Shown: in pieces, positions 23,053-24,171 of the stretch
How positions within the stretch are numbered: position 1 is the stretch's first letter
Layout: each line of letters begins with the position of its first letter
Assembly: GCF_003173335.1 (NCBI RefSeq)
Contig: NZ_QGMZ01000039.1
Location: 62,001 to 126,000 of the forward strand
Direction of reading: 5' to 3'
DNA: 64,000 nt
From: Methanospirillum stamsii
GTDB lineage: Archaea; Halobacteriota; Methanomicrobia; Methanomicrobiales; Methanospirillaceae
The notes under the pieces: generated by a model
What the model was told of the DNA's origin: nothing
The model's input: the letters and a program-made list of their open reading frames with translations, nothing else
Databases searched by the model: none
Position numbers and translations under genes: made by a program

Positions 23053-23295
23053 CTATTCTTCCCATATGACCGAATAATCGGGCAATTCTTTTAAACAATT
23101 CCTGATAGTGATGACTGCTTCTTCACCAGTTGCGTGACCAATAATTATCCCATTTACAAAAACCAGTTCTCCAGGAAGGCATCCACCGATACTGCGAATT
23201 TCCGGAGGGCAAGCCAGATGTGCTTTACCGGATAAACATGAATATCCGGTTTTTTGACTAGATATGAGACAATTTCCATATCTACATAACCTCAC
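23053..23295 (-). CDS. Small cysteine-rich protein, unknown
   Basis: 80 residues from GTG 23295, with Cys at positions 4, 9, 20, 29, 39 and 67. The N-terminal half (CRYGNC, then CLSGKAHLACPPEI) looks like a metal- or cluster-binding segment, and the C-terminal half (LVFVNGIIIGHATGEEAVITIRNCL) like a small alpha/beta tail. No ATG start is available in frame, and the frame runs a few codons further upstream with one more Cys, so the gene could be slightly longer. Composition looks coding, but I do not recognise the family. Confidence 0.45.
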   Translation of the reverse strand: MRLCRYGNCLISSQKTGYSCLSGKAHLACPPEIRSIGGCLPGELVFVNGIIIGHATGEEAVITIRNCLKELPDYSVIWEE

Positions 23296-23434: not shown

Positions 23435-23758
23435 TTAAATGTTTTGGGAAGCCAGTTCGACATCTTCTTCTTTGATTGTCTTCCGTCCCCCATGAGATGC
23501 CATTTTGTTTGCTTCTTTCGTCAGTCTGCCGAGATATGCCTCAGTCATCTGAACAATGAGCTCGGCACCATCACTTCCGACCCGTTCAGCTCCATTTGCC
23601 TTTGCAATCCTGACAACTGCCGCGATCGGCAGATCTGTCGCCCGGACCGAAGTTTTTGGTTTTACCGGAGCAGCCTTTTTTGAAGTAGATTGTTTTGCCT
23701 TTACTGCCAATTTCCCAGGTTTTTTAGATGCAGTTTTTGGCACTGTTTTACTTACCAT
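23435..23758 (-). CDS. Archaeal histone with basic N-terminal tail
   Basis: 107 residues. Residues 43-105 are a canonical HMf-like histone fold: LPIAAVVRIAKANGAERV (helix 1 and loop), a long central helix with AYLGRLTKEANKMA, then GGRKTIKEEDVELA. The protein compacts DNA as dimers or higher oligomers. Residues 1-42 are an extra tail with 11 Lys and several Pro, Ala and Ser (SKKAAPVKPKTS), unlike standard archaeal histones of about 67 residues. GAGG lies five bases before the ATG at 23758, and no ATG, GTG or TTG occurs near the fold's usual start, so the tail is almost surely translated. Confidence 0.92.
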   Translation of the reverse strand: MVSKTVPKTASKKPGKLAVKAKQSTSKKAAPVKPKTSVRATDLPIAAVVRIAKANGAERVGSDGAELIVQMTEAYLGRLTKEANKMASHGGRKTIKEEDVELASQNI

Positions 23759-24171
23759 ATTTCCTCATTCCATCATGATGTGCTGCACGTGTTCATGAAA
23801 ACTGCGTATACAGGATTGTTGTTCCAGGTTCCTTCAGGAATAACATCATCATGATTAATTTATATTATGAATAGGATATTAAAAAAATTATGGTAGAAAA
23901 TTTCTATTTTTTATGATTTGAAGATATGAAAGATTCATTTTTCATAAAATATCCATATACCATCCTCTTCCTAAAGGGATTGAACAGAAGGAAAAAAATT
24001 ACAAATGATATCGGGATAAAATAAATAAAAGCGGTACAAATATACCGAAGAATTATTAAGATCTTTTCTCCCGGCTATATTATACGAGAGACAGAATTTT
24101 ATCAGATTATTCACCGTTTCCCGAAAAAAAGTAATTATTGACTAACGATGTAACAATCTATGATAATGAAT
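23759..24171. other. 413-nt AT-rich intergenic region
   Basis: This holds the histone leader and promoter in its left third. The remainder is AT-rich with many short A or T runs and in-frame stops in all frames. I see no convincing small gene or RNA. The right end is the 3' flank of the transglutaminase-like gene. Confidence 0.6.
23855..23866 (-). promoter_or_regulatory. Putative TATA box of the histone gene
   Basis: On the minus strand AATATAAATTAA lies about 97 nt before the histone ATG, fits the archaeal TATA consensus and is the best such element upstream. It implies a leader of about 70 nt. Confidence 0.45.

Follow-up and report, generated by a model that had tools for sequence, protein, structure and literature searches.

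A lysine-rich N-terminal tail on one of the five histones of a Methanospirillum genome

The window analysed here, a stretch of 64,000 nucleotides from a Methanospirillum genome, carries on its reverse strand a gene (23435..23758; 107 amino acids and a stop codon) for a histone whose fold is preceded by a lysine-rich N-terminal tail. The gene is an open reading frame with Pfam and NCBIfam histone matches and with orthologues in four other Methanospirillum genomes and, judging from a comparison of their sequences, its tail is coding and under selection. We read the protein, with a probability of roughly 0.6, as a separately regulated histone variant in which a disordered polycationic tail would add non-specific DNA contacts to those made by the fold.

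The histone fold (residues 42-107; 23438..23635, reverse strand) is recognised in several ways. Residues 42-103 match PF00808 (E=3e-14) and the NCBIfam family NF043032 (E=1e-16), both over the curated cut-offs; the Pfam Histone profile PF00125 is also above its cut-off, with a match that extends into the tail, and the protein matches HMfA and HMfB in sequence. An AlphaFold2 model built on a 22-sequence alignment places three helices at residues 45-54, 62-89 and 97-106, with pLDDT >90 over the greater part of the fold and no additional helix at either end of it, while residues 1-40 are without secondary structure (pLDDT 54-64). The model fits the HMfB-DNA structure 5t5k with a TM of 0.92 by target length and an rmsd of 1.0.

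The tail (residues 1-41, MVSKTVPKTASKKPGKLAVKAKQSTSKKAAPVKPKTSVRAT; 23636..23758, reverse strand) is predicted to be unstructured and includes 11 Lys and 1 Arg with no Asp or Glu, giving a net charge of +12; the net charge of the fold is -1. Against a Lys background of 4.9% in window ORFs of at least 200 aa, the binomial probability of at least 11 Lys in 41 residues is about 3e-6, although a 41-residue stretch with 11 Lys can also be found in one long window ORF, and the probability of finding 0 acidic residues in 41 is about 0.003. The tail DNA has no source match in the rest of the genome (best other match E=0.11). These results bear out what an earlier note, made from the letters of the window, had proposed, namely an archaeal histone with a lysine-rich N-terminal extension; the 42-residue tail that it described does exist, but counts 41 residues, one fewer than claimed, and its strand had been left unstated. 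The note had also taken the start to be fixed by a ribosome-binding site, and here it was right: a Shine-Dalgarno-like GAGG (23763..23766, reverse strand) stands four bases 5' of the ATG, in the context TGAGGAAAT-ATG, and a purine-rich equivalent precedes the ATG in all four orthologues.

To place the tail among archaeal histones, 232 genomes of the order and a 393-genome sample of the phylum were searched. Among the matches listed, 16 of the 133 distinct histone proteins read are tailed and all 16 come from two genera, in keeping with the earlier note's view of tails as an exception among archaeal histones. The count of tailed relatives that the note had called for comes to 5/12 Methanospirillum species genomes (4/7 among those at least 90% complete) and 11/13 Methanolinea genomes. 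The Methanolinea proteins, to which matches starting inside the tail led in both the order and the phylum searches, form a second tailed family with a 22-residue tail of the MPKPVKKAPAKKKAKSTRSTAF type; the assignment to Methanolinea comes from named records that contain identical DNA. No other histone of the order, among the matches listed, has a tail, the start lying two codons before a DLP-type motif; long open frames 5' of some of these genes (up to 189 codons) were considered as tails and set aside because an ATG or GTG is found two codons before DLP. One scan of viral contigs returned no viral relatives of the tailed histone. The window genome has five histones, of which four are tail-less and one tailed, and the tailed gene is absent from the complete or near-complete relatives G154, G182 and G177, so that it is dispensable at the level of the genus. 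Other chromatin proteins do not separate tailed from untailed genomes, as MC1 is absent from, and one Alba gene present in, 11/11 genomes tested. Among the matches listed, G171 and G077 have unusually many histone copies (11 and 9-10, respectively), most of the order having 1-6.

A tree of 134 folds unites the five tailed proteins of Methanospirillum in one clade (support 97/86), nested within the histones specific to that genus, and places the eleven Methanolinea tailed proteins in a separate clade (100/97). No bootstrap tree joins the two, and an AU test of a single tailed clade does not reject it (p=0.43, on an alignment of only 66 columns). The trees thus favour two origins of the tails, a single origin being neither shown nor rejected. 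In a reduced tree, the window protein takes no firm place within its tailed clade. The genetic contexts vary: the tailed loci of G163 and G167 share a neighbourhood, part of which is shared by G200, and those of the window genome (G000) and G171 are located elsewhere, while the neighbourhood of the Methanolinea tailed locus is largely conserved. In most Methanolinea loci (L217-L226) the tailed histone gene lies downstream of two genes, one for a phosphate transporter (PHO4) and one for a DUF47/PhoU-like protein. Just downstream of the window gene, an 80-aa ORF (23053-23295, reverse strand) aligns to the DUF2117 profile (325 positions) over positions 153-186 only and is probably a gene remnant.

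The tailed gene has a leader of its own. On the reverse strand, a TATA-box-like element at 23857..23866, the presumed promoter, corresponds to a TTATTCATA..TATAAA block conserved 5' of all five tailed genes. Beside it, at position -96, lies TCATGATG (23847..23854), a possible operator, and at position -20 the palindrome TCATGA (23773..23778); both are invariant in 5/5 orthologues and are the two longest invariant runs of the five Methanospirillum leaders (joint column-shuffle p=0.0002). In the leaders of tail-less paralogues that were read, TCATGA is only sporadic and neither block occurs at those two positions. The gene may be regulated through its TCATGA elements. The TCATGA pair was also tried as the mark of a regulon but shows none, since species with and without a tailed histone each have several pairs per genome; as the pair also turns up elsewhere in every genome, the proposal is limited to local regulation.

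Whether the tail is made at all is the first matter on which other explanations bear. If the start were misannotated, the true protein would begin near residue 41, as one might expect from where the remaining histones read in the order, described above, start. This explanation has next to no probability: all five Methanospirillum tailed genes lack an ATG or GTG close to the fold (a single TTG stands at the fold edge, in G163 only), both the start codon and the Shine-Dalgarno-like site are conserved at the long start, and the tail changes as protein-coding sequence does. In the two closest orthologue pairs, the pN/pS of the tail is 0.33 (0.20-0.51) for G000 and G171 and 0.28 (0.16-0.48) for G167 and G163, values that are if anything overestimates because synonymous sites are near saturation. 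Over the five species it is 0.50 in the tail versus 0.23 in the fold, a looser constraint, and purifying selection on tail codons is found in both genera. Taken with the lack of a start codon near the fold and the site at the long start, this selection indicates that the tail is translated and maintained. It also makes highly improbable a neutral extension, in which an AT-rich leader, taken into the gene by a new start codon upstream, would persist without function. An easy route of this kind to Lys-rich tails has been proposed (PMC10919886), and the restriction of tails to few lineages would agree with it, but pN/pS is well below 1, acidic residues are absent from most tails, and the gene has its own presumed promoter and leader 5' of the tail. 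A captured leader may nevertheless be the route by which the tail began.

The remaining alternatives concern what the tail does. The DNA-binding residues R10, R19, K53 and T54 (HMfB numbering) and the salt-bridge residues R52/D59 are invariant in 16/16 tailed proteins, and it is at the dimer-dimer interface that these proteins differ. H49, a tetramer residue, is lost in 13/16 tailed proteins and kept in 87/87 tail-less relatives of the same type; the Methanolinea tailed proteins have A/S46, S/A49, E/D50 and K62 with a shortened helix 3, and G167 and G163 have D49 and E49, respectively, both with N62. According to Henneman et al., changes at the interface are frequent in tailed archaeal histones (PMC6136690), and residue 49 is used by Stevens et al. 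as a diagnostic of capstones (PMC7776873). The tailed histone could then be a capstone that ends hypernucleosomes, the grip of its tail on DNA offsetting the lost dimer-dimer contact. We consider this unlikely, as the 13 losses of H49, given the shared history of the relatives, trace to about two events on the tree and are not strong statistical evidence, and as the window protein, G171 and G200 retain H49, D59 and L/M62. The acidic or hydrophobic residue 49 typical of capstones is found, among the Methanospirillum orthologues, only in G167 and G163. The window protein keeps M46, H49, D59 and L62 together with the small residue G16, and lacks all three stacking pairs of HMfB (30/61, 34/65 and 14/48). 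A signalling tail, with lysines reversibly acetylated or methylated to control chromatin as in eukaryotes, is very unlikely. The tail is indeed Lys-rich and accessible, and an HDAC-family gene is found in the window genome; such a gene is, however, found in 13/13 genomes tested, tailed and tail-less alike, Sir2 is absent from all 13, and both the tail length and many Lys positions change between species. These two erasers thus show no association with the tail, and the earlier note's suggestion that the tail is a candidate for modification is accordingly left without support. In four Methanospirillum genomes, some 6.5-8 kb separate the HDAC-family gene from the gene for the core tail-less histone (G000:C3, at 108229 and 114966; also G171:C19, G154:C1 and G182:C1).

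The reading as a DNA-contacting variant draws on the fold and its structural match, the DNA-binding residues kept in 16/16 proteins, the selection on an acid-free tail, several lysines of which are kept across the Methanospirillum orthologues while other residues change, the presence of one tailed beside four untailed copies, the dedicated leader, and the recurrence of this architecture, with conserved neighbours, in a second genus. The dispensability of the gene at the level of the genus speaks against it. So do the tail lengths in the four orthologues (42 residues in G171, 32 in G200, 37 in both G167 and G163) and the looser constraint, which would also fit a tail kept for bulk charge only. 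As we picture the variant, its fold would dimerise and bind DNA through the conserved R10, R19, K53 and T54, and the disordered N-terminal polycation would exit the particle and contact DNA without sequence specificity. Contact with the same wrapped DNA or with neighbouring DNA would bring higher affinity and compaction, or bridging of segments. The dimer-dimer interface being intact in the window species, the protein can probably join its four tail-less paralogues in hypernucleosomes; in the two sister species (G163 and G167) and in Methanolinea, where the interface is lost, the tailed protein would take a terminal position in a stack or bind as a lone dimer. The tail contact and the co-assembly are both inferred. 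Of the earlier note's idea that tails could bridge DNA as in eukaryotes, DNA contact stands as the natural reading of an acid-free segment of net charge +12, and the eukaryotic parallel is an analogy only.

Archaeal histone tails have been described as rare and mainly found in Asgard archaea (PMC13260811, PMC11390915, PMC10919886), the other published cases being from Huberarchaea and Bathyarchaeota (PMC6136690). In a literature search of main texts, including few subscription papers, we found no description of the tailed histones of Methanospirillum or Methanolinea. The kind, a tailed archaeal histone, is known; what appears to be new is its presence in two methanogen lineages, in part with capstone-like substitutions. 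Eukaryote-like histone tails are thus kept in methanogens, far from Asgard archaea, and two genera with maintained tails beside tail-less sister species offer a direct test of what a tail contributes. The findings are also relevant to the view that tails are readily gained and lost, and that eukaryotic tails need not descend from those of archaea. A bolder proposal, that methanogen tails, perhaps twice evolved, are functional equals of eukaryotic ones, being regulated, possibly modified, and replacing or tuning stack polymerisation, with interface loss repeatedly following tail gain, is in our estimate distinctly unlikely.

Among known systems, HMfA and HMfB of Methanothermus fervidus (PDB 1hta, 1b67 and 5t5k) have the same fold, with 45-47% identity in the structure match, and share with the window protein the DNA-binding residues and the dimer-dimer interface; they have no tail, whereas the window protein has 41 additional N-terminal residues and no HMfB stacking pair. 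The histones of Asgard archaea (Heimdallarchaeota LC_3), Huberarchaea and Bathyarchaeota B23 (PMC6136690, PMC11390915) also combine a nucleosomal histone with a Lys-rich N-terminal tail predicted to be disordered, and among published tails, too, a weakened interface is frequent, as in Heimdall HA with its H49N. The Methanospirillum protein differs from these in belonging to a methanogen lineage, in its 32-42-residue tail of Lys, Ala, Ser, Thr, Val and Pro, in missing the Arg triplet described beside the fold of Heimdall HA, and in being nested in a genus-specific histone clade; this nesting and the lineage-restricted distribution argue against shared descent with Asgard tails. The capstones of Methanobacteriales (Msp_0383 and Msm_1260; PMC7776873), for which the accessible part of the source describes no tail, share an acidic residue 49 with the tailed proteins of G163 and G167 and resemble those of Methanolinea, which are altered at 46, 49, 50 and 62, while the window protein differs from them in keeping H49. 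With the tails of eukaryotic core histones and the C-terminal domain of linker histone H1, the window tail has in common a disordered polycation; the window model differs from eukaryotic histones in its lack of extra terminal helices, and the likeness of the tails is one of analogy. It presumably extends to composition, which we take to resemble that of H1 and H2B.
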